From a virus, in the IMG/VR virus record IMGVR_UViG_3300031772_000199, positions 1-29,780 of that record: a stretch of DNA of 29,780 nt. The stretch is one strand, 5' to 3'. The notes below the pieces were generated by a model, which made no database searches, had not been told where the DNA came from, and saw nothing but the letters and a program-made list of their open reading frames with translations. Below are positions 1-29,780 of the stretch, piece after piece. How positions within the stretch are numbered: position 1 is the stretch's first letter; each line of letters starts with the position of its first letter. The translations under genes and the position numbers were made by a program.

Positions 1-1879
1 GAGCGGACGCAGCGGGAATTATTGGGGCGTCTGGTGAAATAGCGTTAGATGGGAGACTAGGAAGAGTGGTTAAAATAAATGTATTAACACCGCCTGGAAC
101 AGTTTCATACATTGCAAAATCTGGCGTAGGATTGAGCGATTGGGTATTAACTGGCACTGGAGTATTGATACTTGACAATACCCATTGATTAAGAAATCCA
201 ATATATTGATCACCACGGCTTGAAGTTACAAAAGGTGCCAACGAATCTGAATGAACGACTTTTCCATCAAAATCGACAGGAACTATTGGAAACGATCCAA
301 TAATTGTAATTTCTGTTCTATCTGGGATCGAGATAGCGTTATAGAAAAAGGAACTTACCGTATAAGTTCCGTTTAAGACTCCACTGCCAGTAGTAGAATC
401 TTTTATAGTTATTGTGTCTCCCGCAGTTAACTCACCAGTTCTATCGCCTTCAATATATACAATGTTAAAAGTTCCGCCGCGAATTGCCGTATCGATACCA
501 CTTATTGTTATAGGCATTTCTTGAATTTGTATAACAGTATTTACTATGTTTAAAGTTGATCCTACGGTTGTCCAATAACTAACATTATTAAATTCATCTT
601 CTGTGGAAAACTGGAAACCTGGAACGAAAGTAAGAGTATGATCTCCTGCAATTGTTATTGTATTTAGAAAAAAATCAACTCCAATAACTGGATAACGAAG
701 AGACATTTCTTCAATAGTAGGTTGAGTAGACGAAGAAATCCAAGGAGAAACTGAATTAATACGATACAACCAATTAGGATTTGCGTATGTCCATGCATTG
801 AGTTCTAGATATGGATTATACTCTATGATAGGTCGTCTTGCCTGAACGGCACCATTAACGTCTGGAACATCTAAGCGATGATACCAATAGTTAGTTTGAG
901 ACCACGGGTCGAGTTGTGGCACACAAATAATTGTAAAATCCCATGGAAAAGATCCGAGACCAGGATTTTGTAATGCAAGTATCCAAGTGCTGCTTAAAGG
1001 TTCCCAAATATTTAATTGACCATCACCAGCATTTGCAGTGCTATCCCACCAATATGGTGTGTCTTCAGGAAACCCCACGCGCGGGCCTGGAGGTGGATTG
1101 GCTGTAGTCCAGCCGCCGCCAGGGATGGCACCCCCGTTAACGTTAGTTGGATCGCTAGGGATTCCAATATTTCCAACTTGTGTCCACCAATCGAATGGAT
1201 TATCATCCCATTGGGTGGTATCCCACCCAAGACCACCTGAGTTACAAGAACAATCTTTCAATACTGCCAGTGCATTTAATTGGACTATGTAAGCTGCTAG
1301 CTCTGCGGGTGTTATTGTAGGTGTTATAAGTTGTTCATTGATATAATTATTCAATTCGTTATAACGAGCAGTATAAACTTGACAAATACTTTTGATCGTT
1401 ATGTAGTCTGGATCTGATCTTCCAATTGGGTCATACCAATAGTAATTGGTATAGTTGGCTAATTTATCTGGGTCAATTGGTGGTGCCCAGTTGAATTGTA
1501 GCGCGTTACCCCATACTGGAACACGTGCTATATCAACTTGTGTATTCATTAGTTCTGTCTTTACGTTTTCCCAGGACAGAATTGCTTCTACTGTGGCTAG
1601 TTTGGTGTAAAGGACTGGTTGTAACTGCCATGCTTGGCGCAATACAGTTAATTCTGGGAGCCTTGTGTCATGATAGACGTAATCACCGCTTGAAGTTATT
1701 TCAAGTGATGTTGTGTTTCTTTGCCCTATAGATCCAAATGTATATTTTGACTCGTCTTTAGATAGATATCTATTAAAAACGTTTGCTGAAATATATTTGT
1801 TAACATCTTTTTGGAAAACCGTAGGTAGAAAACTATACAAGTCCGTGAACGGTAACTTGTAATCTGAATTATTTTCCAT
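1..1879 (-). CDS. Large virion structural protein, C-terminus cut by window edge
   Basis: An open frame starts with ATG at 1879 and runs without a stop for 626 codons to the window edge, so the C-terminus is missing. It begins MENNSDYKLPFTDLYSF. AAGGAG lies about ten bases upstream. The visible part is rich in Trp, Pro, Asn and Tyr (for example YYWYDP near residue 146 and several WW or PW pairs), with no signal peptide or membrane segment. This composition fits a beta-rich tail or baseplate protein. It lies directly downstream of the gp6-like gene and has its own late-promoter-like motif, so a role in the baseplate periphery or tail fibre attachment is plausible. I do not recognise the family; only the virion assignment is inferred, from position and composition. 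Confidence 0.75.
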   Translation of the reverse strand, partial: MENNSDYKLPFTDLYSFLPTVFQKDVNKYISANVFNRYLSKDESKYTFGSIGQRNTTSLEITSSGDYVYHDTRLPELTVLRQAWQLQPVLYTKLATVEAILSWENVKTELMNTQVDIARVPVWGNALQFNWAPPIDPDKLANYTNYYWYDPIGRSDPDYITIKSICQVYTARYNELNNYINEQLITPTITPAELAAYIVQLNALAVLKDCSCNSGGLGWDTTQWDDNPFDWWTQVGNIGIPSDPTNVNGGAIPGGGWTTANPPPGPRVGFPEDTPYWWDSTANAGDGQLNIWEPLSSTWILALQNPGLGSFPWDFTIICVPQLDPWSQTNYWYHRLDVPDVNGAVQARRPIIEYNPYLELNAWTYANPNWLYRINSVSPWISSSTQPTIEEMSLRYPVIGVDFFLNTITIAGDHTLTFVPGFQFSTEDEFNNVSYWTTVGSTLNIVNTVIQIQEMPITISGIDTAIRGGTFNIVYIEGDRTGELTAGDTITIKDSTTGSGVLNGTYTVSSFFYNAISIPDRTEITIIGSFPIVPVDFDGKVVHSDSLAPFVTSSRGDQYIGFLNQWVLSSINTPVPVNTQSLNPTPDFAMYETVPGGVNTFILTTLPSLPSNAISPDAPIIPAASA

Positions 1880-1903
1880 TAGTCTTTAAGCTCCTTGATA
1901 ACA

Positions 1904-1916
1904 TATTTATCAGAAT
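1904..1916 (-). promoter_or_regulatory. Late-promoter-like motif ATTCTGATAAATA
   Basis: The minus strand reads ATTCTGATAAATA about 25 bases before the start codon of the truncated structural gene. The same 13-mer occurs before the gp25-like gene, and near copies occur before the oxygenase gene and the 518-aa gene. It resembles the T4 late promoter TATAAATA. No TTGACA-like -35 box was seen, as expected for a T4-type late promoter. Confidence 0.55.
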
Positions 1917-1949
1917 AGCGGCTTCCAAAAAATACTCTATTTAAGGGCA

Positions 1950-4900
1950 TTAAGATTGTCGCAAAACTGCCTTACTTAAAGAGGTAACTATGCTAATCTG
2001 ATTTACTGTTATATCAGGAACAAATATTTCATTATCAGAAACCTGAACTTGATACAAATCACCAAATGAATTATTCGAAGCGGCTGGAACCAATACTACG
2101 CTATTGATATCCGATGGCATCACAGCATGTATTGCTGCGGCTAATTCTGAAAAATAGAATGATTCGCCAAATTCAAAATTTGTAATATCAAAAAATTCTT
2201 GTGTGGTTTGAATTATATTTTGTTTAATTTCGTTACCAGTTAATGAAGTTAACGGCGACGGAATAACAACGATGGTAGCTTGTAATGATGGTTCGGCGTG
2301 CGGACCAAATAAAACTTTAAATCCACCAGATTGCAAAACTATCGTGTCTGAAAGCATTCTACTTTCTAACAAATAACCGTAATCTGTTCTTAGATCAAAA
2401 GGAGTTGGTGCTGCTGGTTGATTTGGAACCACCCCAGCTAACCAATTTTTAAAATTAATATAATAATCACGTTGAATTATATACGTATCAATTATGTTAG
2501 TTGCTGAAGGATCAATTAGGTTTCGTCCGCGAGTTTTGTGTGTCCAGAAGAAATTCAAACCACTTCTTCCCGGCAAGCGAGAATATACATCACCAGTGTC
2601 AGTGTTTGTGGATGAAGTATCATCAATAAATGCTTGAATGTTATCTAGTGTTGGGGGAATTGGAACCGTTTCTGTTTCTGGATCGGCTTGGAAAAAATAA
2701 ACATAATCTGTTACGACTACAGTTGCAGAGTTATTTCCATTAAAATTTGTAATAGCAACGGCATTTTGTATAGTATTAGAATTGCTATAAGGTAAAATAT
2801 TATTGAAAGTTATTGTGAATCCTAGATCTCCAGTTACTGTAACATCTCCGCGACCTTGAATATAAGAAATCGGTACTGGTACAATAAGTGGAGTTGCCGT
2901 ATTGATTAAAGTACCGGACCCAGTAACTGCAACGTCATTTGTTGGATTGTGCCCGAGATAATCAATATCCCAAGTTCCATAAGGAGTAAAATCTACATCT
3001 ATTGTGAAGTATGGATTAATAGTTCCACCCGCTCCTGCGGGTGCTCCTACGAGAGCGACCGAAACGAATGTATCTATGGCAAAAATAGATGAAAGTGTTA
3101 CATATGATCCATTGTTAGCACCAGCCCCACTTACAGTAAATTGTCTTCCTGGGACGAAAAAGTCAGTAAGATCGTTAGTGATTTCAAATGTGTTTGCGAA
3201 ACTATCAACAGCCACAATATTAAATGATCCTGGAATGGTCGAAGTTAATTTCATATTTCCACTTGGGAACGTGATTTGGACCAAAGGAGTTACCGGTATT
3301 TGTGATAAAATAGTATTAGCAAAATTCTGGTATGTTTGTGCTTCACTCATTCTAAATGTTACTGTTGACAGAAGACCAGCAACTGTAACATCCATGCTTA
3401 ATTGTTCATCGACTCCTTCTGTGTCTCCAGAATAAATGAAATCAATCGATTGGTTCAATGCTGTAGCTAAAGCTTGGATAATTCCATTAGAAGCTAAATA
3501 ATTTGTAACGTTTGTTTTCGATAAGAAACCAGTGGTATTGCTTGTAATTTTTATATTACCGTTGGAAATCTGAGCAACAGCTAAATTTTGCAAGTTAGCA
3601 TTAAGTACATCAATTAATGATGCATAAGTCTGAATTTGATTTCCATCTGTAGTGAATGAGATTCTATTTACTGCATTATGATAGTTTAAGTCACCATCAA
3701 AAATTCCTGACGGAATAGTTTCGAACGTTGTTATTTCAGTACCTAATGTATTTGTTCCAATTATTGGGGTGTTGAACGCTATGAATGTGTCTAGAGATCC
3801 AAATAATGGATTTATTCCTGGTACGCTAGATAGCAGTGCAACGAAGTCTACGAGATCGGGATTGAAAAATAGACCACCAAGTATCGCAGGTATTATAGCA
3901 ACAGTCGATGTACTACCAAGTGATGATGATGTTATTCTTACATTACCACCTACTATGGCTGCTGTTGCGGCGAGGCCCAAATCAGTGTTGAGTTCGGCGA
4001 TCAATTCAGTATATGTTTGTGCCAAGGAAGCATCAATAGAAATTGGAATTCCAATTCCGTCAATTGCAATAGTTGCTAGATATGTGGTATCTGTACCTGG
4101 AACGGCTATAGCAAATGATGTCCATGGTGTTGCTTCTGCGGCTAGACCAACACCAAACAAAAGTGGATTAACACCAGCATCAGTTAGTGCTACAGTTGAT
4201 GCAACGCCAAATGACGCACTTGTTACACGTATATAACCAGGAACTTCAAATGATGCTACCGCATTAGGAGCTAACGCTGCTGACATTGCTGCTATAACTG
4301 CTGCGTAGTCAATGAATGGACCTGTGATAGTGTATATTGTTGGACCCGCCCCGTCAATGTTTGCTGTAAAGTCCCATGAGCCAGGAGCGCTTAATGGACC
4401 AATTAGTAGAGTAGCAGGAGAAGGAATAACCGGAAAAAACACCGCATCTTGGAAACCGGCTGTTGCAACAAGTCCTGTCAATGATGGGCCAGTTATTGCG
4501 CCCCCAACGTCTATATCTTGATAACCAGACGATGCAACATCTGTTAATAAAACCGTAGATGTTGTACCAACGGAAGCACTAGACACTTGTAAGTTACCAT
4601 TCGTGATAGAAGCCAAACCTTGTGGAGAAGTAAACCCGTTTAATGTGTTAATTAAATCATTGTAAGTTTGTGAGGAACCCCCAGAAATTGTTATTGGTAT
4701 AGGAGCCCCACCATCAAATGTAATATTGGCTGAGTATAAAGTTAATACTGTATCAGTGCCAGGAACCGTGGTCCATAGGCCAGGGATATTAACACCTGTT
4801 AGTGAAGCAAATAATAAATTAGCACCAGTGTCAATTATTGCTACAGTAGAAATTGAACCGGTAGCAGCGTTAGTTATTTGAATATTACCACCAACTTGTT

Positions 4901-25104: not shown

Positions 25105-25133
25105 ATTATACGATGGATTACTGCTTTTGTCAA
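25105..25133 (-). promoter_or_regulatory. Consensus sigma70 promoter for primase
   Basis: Minus strand: TTGACA (25133-25128), 17 bases, TATAAT (25110-25105), a perfect match to both consensus boxes and spacing. Only about ten bases separate the -10 from the primase ATG, so the leader is extremely short. The -35 box overlaps the clpP-like stop. Confidence 0.85.
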
Positions 25134-25732
25134 CGTCTAGTTCTTTTAGGTTTCTTTTCGATTTCTTCTTCTTTCGTCATTCTATTTAGACGCCGTTTAA
25201 TTTCGTCAGTTTCTAGCCAAAGGTCTCTGCCATCTATAACCTGTTCGATTTCTTCAGCAGTAAGAAATGGTACACAAATTTTTCTAAACATTTTATTATA
25301 CCATTTATTAACTGCTTCTAGTTCGGCAGTTAGTTCATGACCTTTACCGTACATACCAGCAGAAAAATTATGAAACATCATCAAACAATGGTCGTGGATT
25401 TGAAGTTCATCACCAGACAGAAAAATTAGAGTGCCTAAAGAATGTGCAGTACTTTCTAAACTAACGACTACGTGTGCTGGAGTGTTACGGATAGCATTTA
25501 TTATTTGAACCCCAGTTTCTAGATTTCCTCCTGGGGTGTTTAAATAAATGTAAATTACGTCATTTTCAGTTGCTTGCTTAATTTTATTGACCATTTCTAC
25601 ATATTCAATTGGATCACCAATTACACTTGATAGAAAAATAGATATTTGTTTTGATGGAATTTTTCTTTCAAAAATTTTATAACCGAATTGTTCACGTTCA
25701 TTTTTTTTCTTATTTGAAGTGTCTTGACCCAT
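25130..25732 (-). CDS. ClpP-like serine protease
   Basis: A 200-residue protein with the ClpP/crotonase-like fold pattern: IYIYLNTPGGNLETGVQIINAIR (61-82), the nucleophile motif ESTAHSLG with Ser98 (ClpP usually QAASMG), and HDHCLMMFHNFSAG with catalytic His121. The third residue, Asp in EYGLVD of ClpP, is not seen; the matching place reads RRLNRM, so the triad may be altered. Length is close to ClpP (about 207). ClpP forms tetradecamers fed by ClpX/ClpA, neither of which is in the window. In other phages ClpP-like enzymes are head maturation proteases, but the gene here directly follows a tmRNA. AAGGAT lies about nine bases before the ATG. Confidence 0.85.
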   Translation of the reverse strand: MGQDTSNKKKNEREQFGYKIFERKIPSKQISIFLSSVIGDPIEYVEMVNKIKQATENDVIYIYLNTPGGNLETGVQIINAIRNTPAHVVVSLESTAHSLGTLIFLSGDELQIHDHCLMMFHNFSAGMYGKGHELTAELEAVNKWYNKMFRKICVPFLTAEEIEQVIDGRDLWLETDEIKRRLNRMTKEEEIEKKPKRTRR

Positions 25733-25749: not shown

Positions 25750-26050
25750 TTATTTGAAAAGTGGTGGGTTTTTCGGTTCCCAGGAAACCCACCGAAACTC
25801 GTGAAAACTATTACGCGGCTAGCGCAAAGTCTTCATGGTAAAATGCGTCGTTTGCATTTATGATTTTGCTACTTTTGATATTACTCAGTGTACGCCTACT
25901 GGGTTGCTCTTGTTGGTACATTATCATGTCCCCGTCGAATCCTGTCATCCCCGTGTCTTAAAAACTTAATTGGTGGAGATGCCGGTATATGATAACCGGG
26001 TCCGAAAACACTTTCCACAATTCGAGTTTACAACCATTTTTACTGCTTAC
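25750..26050 (-). ncRNA. ssrA: Circularly permuted two-piece tmRNA
   Basis: Trans-translation RNA that rescues stalled ribosomes. Read leftward, the acceptor piece comes first: TTTCGGAC, T-arm CCGGT..ACCGG (25999-25982), 3' acceptor strand CATCTCC (25981-25975) and encoded ACCA. An 18-base spacer follows, then the coding piece starting GGGGATG (25952-25946) and continuing GACAGGATTCGACGG, the tmRNA 5' signature. GGGGATG pairs with CATCTCC over 7 bp, with one G-U. The tag frame follows (25855-25811). A pseudoknot-like element (UUUCGGU/ACCGAAA and GGGUU/AACCC) lies at 25797-25766, and CACTTTTC (25763-25756) can pair with GGAAAGTG in the acceptor piece. Outer ends are approximate. This gene order is typical of alphaproteobacterial tmRNA. 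Confidence 0.9.
25811..25855 (-). other. tmRNA tag reading frame
   Basis: GCA AAC GAC ... GCC GCG TAA TAG encodes ANDAFYHEDFALAA, then tandem stops. The AND start and the ALAA end are the standard degradation tag ends, recognised by ClpXP-type proteases in bacteria. The resume codon is GCA. Confidence 0.92.
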
Positions 26051-26058
26051 TTATATTT

Positions 26059-26087
26059 ATAGTAACACTGTATTAAAGAGAAGTCAA
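26059..26087 (-). promoter_or_regulatory. Sigma70-type promoter for tmRNA
   Basis: Minus strand: TTGACT (26087-26082), 17 bases, TACTAT (26064-26059). Expected start near 26051, just before the acceptor piece. The -10 overlaps a perfect TATAAATA (26061-26054), so late transcription is also possible. Confidence 0.75.
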
Positions 26088-26859: not shown

Positions 26860-27390
26860 TTATTTTGTTCCTTTAGTTTTCGCCCAGTTCAAATCAAGAT
26901 TTTCTTTATATTCGTCATCAAAGATTAACTCAAAATCTATCTTTGGTAATTTAGAAACATCCAAGTCTCCTATGTCATATGAAAACGTTACATGTGGAGT
27001 ATAGTTGTCATAATCAAAAGTAGCCGCATGTTCTTTCATCAAATTCTTGTGCCTTTTAATTAGTTCTGGACAATTAAGTTTAACAATTAAACAGTTAGTC
27101 TTTTCTTCATTTGGATCTGTTGGTGAAGTTTTCCATACAGTAAAATTTTCAGTTTTACATACATACGGTGTATCCAGTTTACCAGCAGGTTTGTAATTTG
27201 TCAAATATTTTCTACTGTATAACAATGTAACATGAAGCTTTTCTGGTTTTAGTGGTGTTGGTATTTTATTATCTTTAAGATATTTTGCTACTTTTTCTTG
27301 AGTTTCTTTACTGGCTTTAACACCAGAGTAGGTGCCTAGCTTGGAATTTTTATCGTGTTTTTCTACCAATATTTCGTTCAGAGTTACCAT
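26860..27390 (-). CDS. Acb1-like anti-CBASS 2H phosphodiesterase
   Basis: A 176-residue protein with two HxT motifs, LHVTLLYS (53-55) and PHVTFSYD (133-135), placed like those of T4 57B, now known as Acb1, which degrades cyclic di- and trinucleotides used by the CBASS defence. The stretch KIPTPLKPEKLHVTLLYSRKYL resembles Acb1 more than RNA 2',3'-cyclic phosphodiesterases, and the length (Acb1 about 150) fits. An RNA-repair role is an alternative, given the RNA ligase elsewhere. CAGGAAAGG precedes the ATG. Between DNA ligase and DHFR. Confidence 0.75.
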   Translation of the reverse strand: MVTLNEILVEKHDKNSKLGTYSGVKASKETQEKVAKYLKDNKIPTPLKPEKLHVTLLYSRKYLTNYKPAGKLDTPYVCKTENFTVWKTSPTDPNEEKTNCLIVKLNCPELIKRHKNLMKEHAATFDYDNYTPHVTFSYDIGDLDVSKLPKIDFELIFDDEYKENLDLNWAKTKGTK

Positions 27391-29439: not shown

Positions 29440-29468
29440 ATTTTACTCTAGATTTACTATGGTGTCAA
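29440..29468 (-). promoter_or_regulatory. Sigma70-type promoter for ligA operon
   Basis: Minus strand: TTGACA (29468-29463), 17 bases, TAAAAT (29445-29440), about 30 bases before the ligase start. Its -35 lies inside the end of the repeat gene. Confidence 0.78.
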
Positions 29469-29780
29469 GGTAATAATTGGATGGTAGTAAACTATTTTAA
29501 ATTGTTGTTCAAGTGTATTAAATAAAGCAGATGCTCTTGCCTCTTTGTATATCTTCCAAGCAGGTGATCTTGCCTCATCGAATATCTTCAAAGCAGATGC
29601 TGTTGCCTCATCGTATATCTTCAAAGCATGTGCTGTTGCCTCGTTGTATATCTTCAAAGCAGATGCTCTTGCCTCATCGAATATCTTCAAAGCAGATGCT
29701 GTTGCCTCATCATATATCTTCAAAGCAGGTGCTGTTGCCTCATCATATATCTTCAAAGCAGGTGCTGTTGCCTCATCATA
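29457..29780 (-). CDS. 11-residue-repeat helical protein, N-terminus cut by window edge
   Basis: The open frame runs from the window edge to a stop at 29457, so its start lies outside. It consists of near-identical 11-residue units of type KIYDEATASAL, followed by a non-repeat tail of about 25 residues (FNTLEQQFKIVYYHP). Hendecad periodicity with Ala/Leu and Lys/Glu fits a long amphipathic helix or right-handed coiled coil. No domain recognised. It may be a structural or membrane-surface protein; this is unproven. Confidence 0.6.
   Translation of the reverse strand, partial: YDEATAPALKIYDEATAPALKIYDEATASALKIFDEARASALKIYNEATAHALKIYDEATASALKIFDEARSPAWKIYKEARASALFNTLEQQFKIVYYHPIITLTP
29524..29780. 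repeat. 33-bp tandem repeats
   Basis: Seven full units (29539-29769) plus partial units at each end, running off the window. Copies differ at a few positions; the sixth and seventh are identical, and the second and fifth match each other, which suggests recent unequal duplication. Confidence 0.9.

Follow-up and report, generated by a model that had tools for sequence, protein, structure and literature searches.

A circularly permuted phage tmRNA with a variant T-arm, encoded beside a ClpP-type protease gene

The window, that is, the whole 29,780-base virus record analysed here, carries a real phage two-piece tmRNA that is ordinary in kind; what is unusual is the class of its T-arm and the order in which a ClpP-type protease gene follows it. 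Two-piece tmRNAs of phages are already known, and the present case is set apart by an altered-loop viral group that the standard gene finder misses. Both the 8-nt T-loop and the ClpP neighbour had been overlooked in the initial annotation of this DNA.

Anatomy of the permuted tmRNA gene

In a Rfam covariance model search, the core permuted tmRNA, comprising the tRNA-like domain and the tag frame, was found on the minus strand at 26035–25811, matching RF04321 (tmRNA_permuted; gathering score 47 bits) over the full model length (1–213) with 100.8 bits (E = 8.5e-19). RF01849 (alpha_tmRNA) also matched in full length, flanking structure included, with 61.6 bits against a gathering score of 50, and the outer limits of this match are 25763–26086 on the same strand. 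Chance is excluded as the source of these matches. The initial annotation had called a circularly permuted tmRNA of the alphaproteobacterial type and had proposed the Rfam alpha-tmRNA model as a check; both models bear it out.

The CCA-bearing 3' half of the acceptor is encoded upstream of the 5' half, which is the permuted order. Reading along the minus strand, the long-stem strand GGTTG of the acceptor piece (26031–26035; partner CAACC at 25906–25902 in the covariance model alignment) is followed by the T-arm CCGGT-TATCATAT-ACCGG (25982–25999), the acceptor 3' strand CATCTCC (25975–25981), the encoded discriminator and CCA (ACCA, 25971–25974), an 18-nt intervening segment, ATTAAGTTTTTAAGACAC (25953–25970), presumed from other permuted tmRNAs to be removed in processing, and the acceptor 5' strand GGGGATG (25946–25952). 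The earlier coordinates for the acceptor stem (GGGGATG at 25952–25946 with CATCTCC at 25981–25975), the ACCA and the spacer were thus exact. The D-region GGATTCGACG is also present. The third of the seven acceptor pairs is a G:U wobble (G3:U70), the alanine identity pair recognised by alanyl-tRNA synthetase (AlaRS), and the discriminator is A. G3:U70 occurred in 70/70 distinct permuted-type pattern matches, the window among them, a count that is merely descriptive because the search pattern itself demands G3 and U70.

The tag frame (25808–25855, minus strand; GCA AAC GAC ... GCG) is complete, as had been read initially; it encodes ANDAFYHEDFALAA, ending in -AA, and closes with the tandem stops TAA TAG. 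Behind it, an H-type pseudoknot can be read from the sequence at 25765–25797 (minus strand), TTTCGG/CCGAAA being interleaved with TGGGTT/AACCCA, in a region covered by RF01849; at the corresponding position, the relative L002 retains GGTGGA/TCCACC. The gene order, acceptor stem, D-region, tag type and terminal pseudoknot region are shared with the alphaproteobacterial two-piece tmRNA (RF01849; Caulobacter), whereas the window tmRNA differs in lying on a phage, in having the 8-nt loop in place of TTCRANY, and in belonging to virus records where no SmpB gene was found. A T4-type late promoter match, TATAAATA, lies just upstream of the tmRNA at 26061–26054. We do not claim it as a promoter, since the window holds two such matches against 4.4 expected by chance and L002 holds none.

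An 8-nt T-loop missed by ARAGORN and shared among viral tmRNAs

Compared with the canonical 7-nt TTCRANY, the T-loop of the window tmRNA has 8 nt, and it lacks TTC, the motif on which the tRNA elbow relies for support, close to the SmpB binding site. ARAGORN, which had also been suggested as a check, reported no tmRNA in the window, most likely due to this non-canonical T-loop. Taken alone, it would have falsely refuted a gene that the Rfam models match.

We searched IMG/VR with a pattern built from the acceptor 3' end, the spacer, the acceptor 5' end and the D-region, which leaves the T-arm free, and 100 stretches matched. Of the permuted-type genes, 56 distinct ones could be resolved; 42 of these have 7-nt T-loops, and ARAGORN detects 38 of the 42. 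It detects two of the eight genes with 6-nt loops, none of the four with 8-nt TATCRTAN loops and neither of the two others. A further 29 anchors with the 8-nt loop were all missed, giving 0/33 together with the four permuted genes, where one anchor (L164) is not a tmRNA. The 6-nt loops (TTCGAT or TTCGAC), mostly missed by ARAGORN, belong to the viral permuted tmRNAs L010, L015, L025, L047, L050, L062, L069 and L081. If UAUCGUAU loses one A and one U, what remains is UUCGAU, which some other viral tmRNAs have as their 6-nt loop, and the two loops may be linked by such a derivation.

Searches with T-loop patterns returned 46 IMG/VR stretches, or 59 with a looser stem. One-piece and permuted genes together gave 39 distinct viral T-arms in which a TATCRTAN loop sits on a covarying stem; the loop sequence is set by the search pattern, save in the four permuted genes detected by the pattern that leaves the T-arm free. 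Stem pair 1 is T-A in 17, C-G in 10, G-C in 8 and A-T in 4 of these T-arms, and pair 2 also occurs in all four Watson-Crick types, so that the 5-bp stem with its 8-nt loop is a real structure. The closing pair is C-G or T-A, the single G-C being that of L164. When 16 variant-loop loci were scanned with Rfam, 15 had a tmRNA at that place, 11 of them permuted (RF04321) and four of the standard one-piece form (RF00023). Tags ending in -AA were recognised in several members. Two other pattern matches, L073 and L117, were set aside, their T-arms not having the appearance of a clean permuted tmRNA type. In the tRNA-rich phage contig L144, a GOLLD RNA (2524–2979; 175.8 bits) lies about 2.5 kb before the variant-T-loop tmRNA.

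The variant T-loop was then sought in 84,980 bacterial and archaeal genomes, requiring CGG/CCG stems and an encoded CTCCACCA, and no cellular tmRNA with a TATCRTAN loop was found. The scan gave two matches. One, L163, is nominally a 'Bacteroidetes' contig of a metagenome bin and is a phage contig, with endolysin, phage exonuclease and endonuclease VII genes; the other, L164 (Paenibacillus), fits the T-loop pattern at a place where there is no tmRNA, a separate standard tmRNA being present elsewhere in that genome. With looser requirements, 395 genomes from the phylum of L163's bin returned only the same phage contig, and the cellular tmRNAs resolved in that phylum (26/30) all have 7-nt TTCRANT loops. 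These comparisons of sequences give good support to a T-arm class in tmRNA that would be specific to viruses.

This class was reached through structural DNA patterns, where back-translated ClpP (no relative in IMG/VR) and the exact tag pattern (no relatives) had failed. The tmRNA region and four variant tmRNAs gave no blastn match in 50,697 phage records, and a 33-nt T-arm query found nothing, so that these searches led to no named isolate carrying the 8-nt loop.

Permuted tmRNAs themselves are present in dozens of IMG/VR contigs, and two jumbo phages, XacN1 and Phosso, also have them. Xanthomonas, the host of XacN1, belongs to a group with one-piece tmRNA. The XacN1 tmRNA (AP018399, 37231–37530, where the record has no annotation) resembles that of the window in being permuted, in lying on a jumbo phage and in the presence of related ligase, ClpP and primase genes; unlike the latter, it is detected by ARAGORN, encodes the tag ANANTFDYALAA, and lies near tRNA genes and far from ClpP. 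It occurs a second time at 356026–356325, the two copies probably being terminal repeats. In Phosso (PV764938), a permuted tmRNA match of 113 bits, missed by ARAGORN, spans about 600 nt of an unannotated gap (349596–350198) and so has a long spacer or insert.

Among bacteria, three groups are known to make two-piece products from permuted tmRNAs (Keiler et al. 2000; Sharkady and Williams 2004, both as cited in PMC9004378). The initial annotation knew of no permuted tmRNA on a T4-type phage, which was wrong, as a two-piece tmRNA has been published for the T4-like methylophage Melnitz, along with a tmRNA of the Pelagibacter phage Mosig (PMC9004378). Like the window, these two are T4-like aquatic myophages with a tmRNA, which in Melnitz is also permuted; theirs were found by ARAGORN and are accompanied by a glutamine riboswitch, whereas that of the window is invisible to ARAGORN and a gathering-level Rfam search showed no riboswitch in the window. 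Among 18,146 phage genomes, the same study counted 53 two-piece structures, 50 of them aquatic (PMC9004378), and a tmRNA has been reported in the Sinorhizobium jumbo phage AP-J-162 (PMC11242549). Phages account for 79 sequences in the tmRNA database, whose main batches come from ARAGORN and BLASTN matches (PMC11915505). Huge phages likewise have tmRNAs in genomes above 200 kb; these were assigned by ARAGORN, a program that misses the T-loop class of the window, and the text of that paper does not mention ClpP (PMC7162821). In the open-access papers covered by our search, neither the 8-nt T-loop nor a tmRNA–ClpP neighbourhood is mentioned.

The ClpP neighbour and its genomic context

The first gene after the tmRNA (25130–25732, minus strand) encodes a ClpP-type serine protease (Pfam PF00574, 5.9e-14; PHROG 1827, 5.4e-59), whose Ser-His-Asp triad aligns with solved ClpP structures. 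Its homology to ClpP is clear. A ClpP gene follows the tmRNA on the same strand, 190–873 nt past the CCA region, in the window and in L002, L015, L018, L063 and L081. It is the next same-strand gene in all of these except L002, where it lies within 0.9 kb of the tmRNA with one ORF between. That 230-aa ORF (1292–1984, minus strand) looks like a putative insertion of the homing-endonuclease type. The six cases are not independent because some of these phages are clearly related; ClpP identity among them drops to about 38%.

The other genes of the window include T4-like baseplate genes, ribonucleotide reductase, NAD-dependent ligase, an Acb1 anti-CBASS homologue, DHFR, primase and RNA ligase. The nearest relative found, the 378,912-bp contig L002, shares the block ligA-Acb1-DHFR-orf64-tmRNA-ClpP-primase at 51–73% protein identity, and the window therefore probably represents part of the genome of a jumbo phage. 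As L002 also keeps the tag frame, the tmRNA has been maintained over this divergence. The homologue of the anti-CBASS nuclease Acb1 (26860–27390, minus strand; PF23474, 3.8e-34) is conserved in L002, L018, L081 and RAS14. At the record end (29457–29756, minus strand), the window has an ORF of tandem repeats (KIYDEATASAL units).

SmpB was absent from 30/30 virus records searched, and the window tmRNA would thus depend on the host. SmpB is present in some huge phages according to Al-Shayeb et al. (PMC7162821). Of nine records searched for ClpX, two had it (the L095 contig and Phosso), the window and L002 not being among the two; consequently, the phage ClpP would need a host unfoldase.

Proposed working and its alternatives

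Reasoning at every step from the biology of tmRNAs, we consider it quite likely that this is a functional two-piece tmRNA of the 8-nt-T-loop viral group. Once the gene is expressed, host tRNA-processing enzymes would cut the transcript at the spacer, leaving an acceptor piece (long-stem strand, T-arm, acceptor 3' strand and CCA) still paired with a coding piece (acceptor 5' strand, D-region, tag frame and pseudoknot). Host AlaRS would charge the CCA end through G3:U70, host SmpB would deliver the tmRNA to ribosomes stalled on broken mRNA, and the added tag would direct the product to degradation by a Clp protease. The T-loop without its canonical TTC motif and the need for host SmpB and a host unfoldase speak against a working tmRNA.

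The same T-loop could belong to a decoy that binds SmpB, AlaRS or ribosomes, tags poorly and shuts off host trans-translation. Such a role has been proposed for the tmRNA of mycobacteriophage DS6A, which consists of the tRNA-like domain only, a type able to inhibit host tmRNA (PMC4131195; PMC11915505), and the loop is non-canonical across the entire viral class. The window, however, retains its tag frame, tandem stops, CCA, G3:U70 and pseudoknot intact, and several variant-class members have -AA tag ends that a decoy does not need; we regard this alternative as improbable. We consider a functionless, decaying or accidental tmRNA derived from a host very unlikely. The failure of ARAGORN and the departure of the T-loop from the bacterial norm would fit such decay, but this deviation is common to many divergent viruses, with compensatory changes in the stem, and in L002 the tmRNA is intact although its ClpP is only 64% identical.

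Whether a working tmRNA is coupled to ClpP is a closer question, for which the gene order is only suggestive. The phage ClpP may help to dispose of tagged or other proteins during infection, a proposal that we hold to be evenly balanced. Only slightly less probable is a working tmRNA beside an unrelated ClpP, either a protease of general function or one related to those of head maturation, the order possibly reflecting inherited synteny and not function. ClpP and primase are adjacent in XacN1 and RAS14 with no tmRNA between, XacN1 has its tmRNA and ClpP about 49 kb apart, and head-maturation proteases are found among the ClpP-like PHROGs. On the other hand, the best PHROG for the window ClpP is an ATP-dependent protease, well above the head-maturation families, and the adjacency persists in contigs whose further neighbours differ (thymidylate kinase in L015, tail-related genes in L063).

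Taking the functional tmRNA reading further, there may be a virus-specific tmRNA class of one-piece and permuted members, marked by an altered T-arm (Y-R closing pair, 8-nt UAUCRUAN) and systematically overlooked by ARAGORN-based annotation, with one branch forming a tag-plus-protease module through a dedicated phage ClpP; for this whole picture, the chances seem to us about equal either way. Literature counts of phage tmRNA rest largely on ARAGORN, and as ARAGORN is blind to one tmRNA class, viral trans-translation is likely to be commoner than reported. That this T-arm recurs in diverse viral tmRNAs, and was found in no cellular tmRNA, points either to a tmRNA lineage of viruses comprising one-piece and permuted genes, or to an elbow, the part that faces SmpB, whose alteration was selected for more than once. 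The tmRNA–ClpP order offers a testable case of one phage encoding both tag and protease, in which the product of the adjoining ClpP gene could act on the tag that the tmRNA adds.
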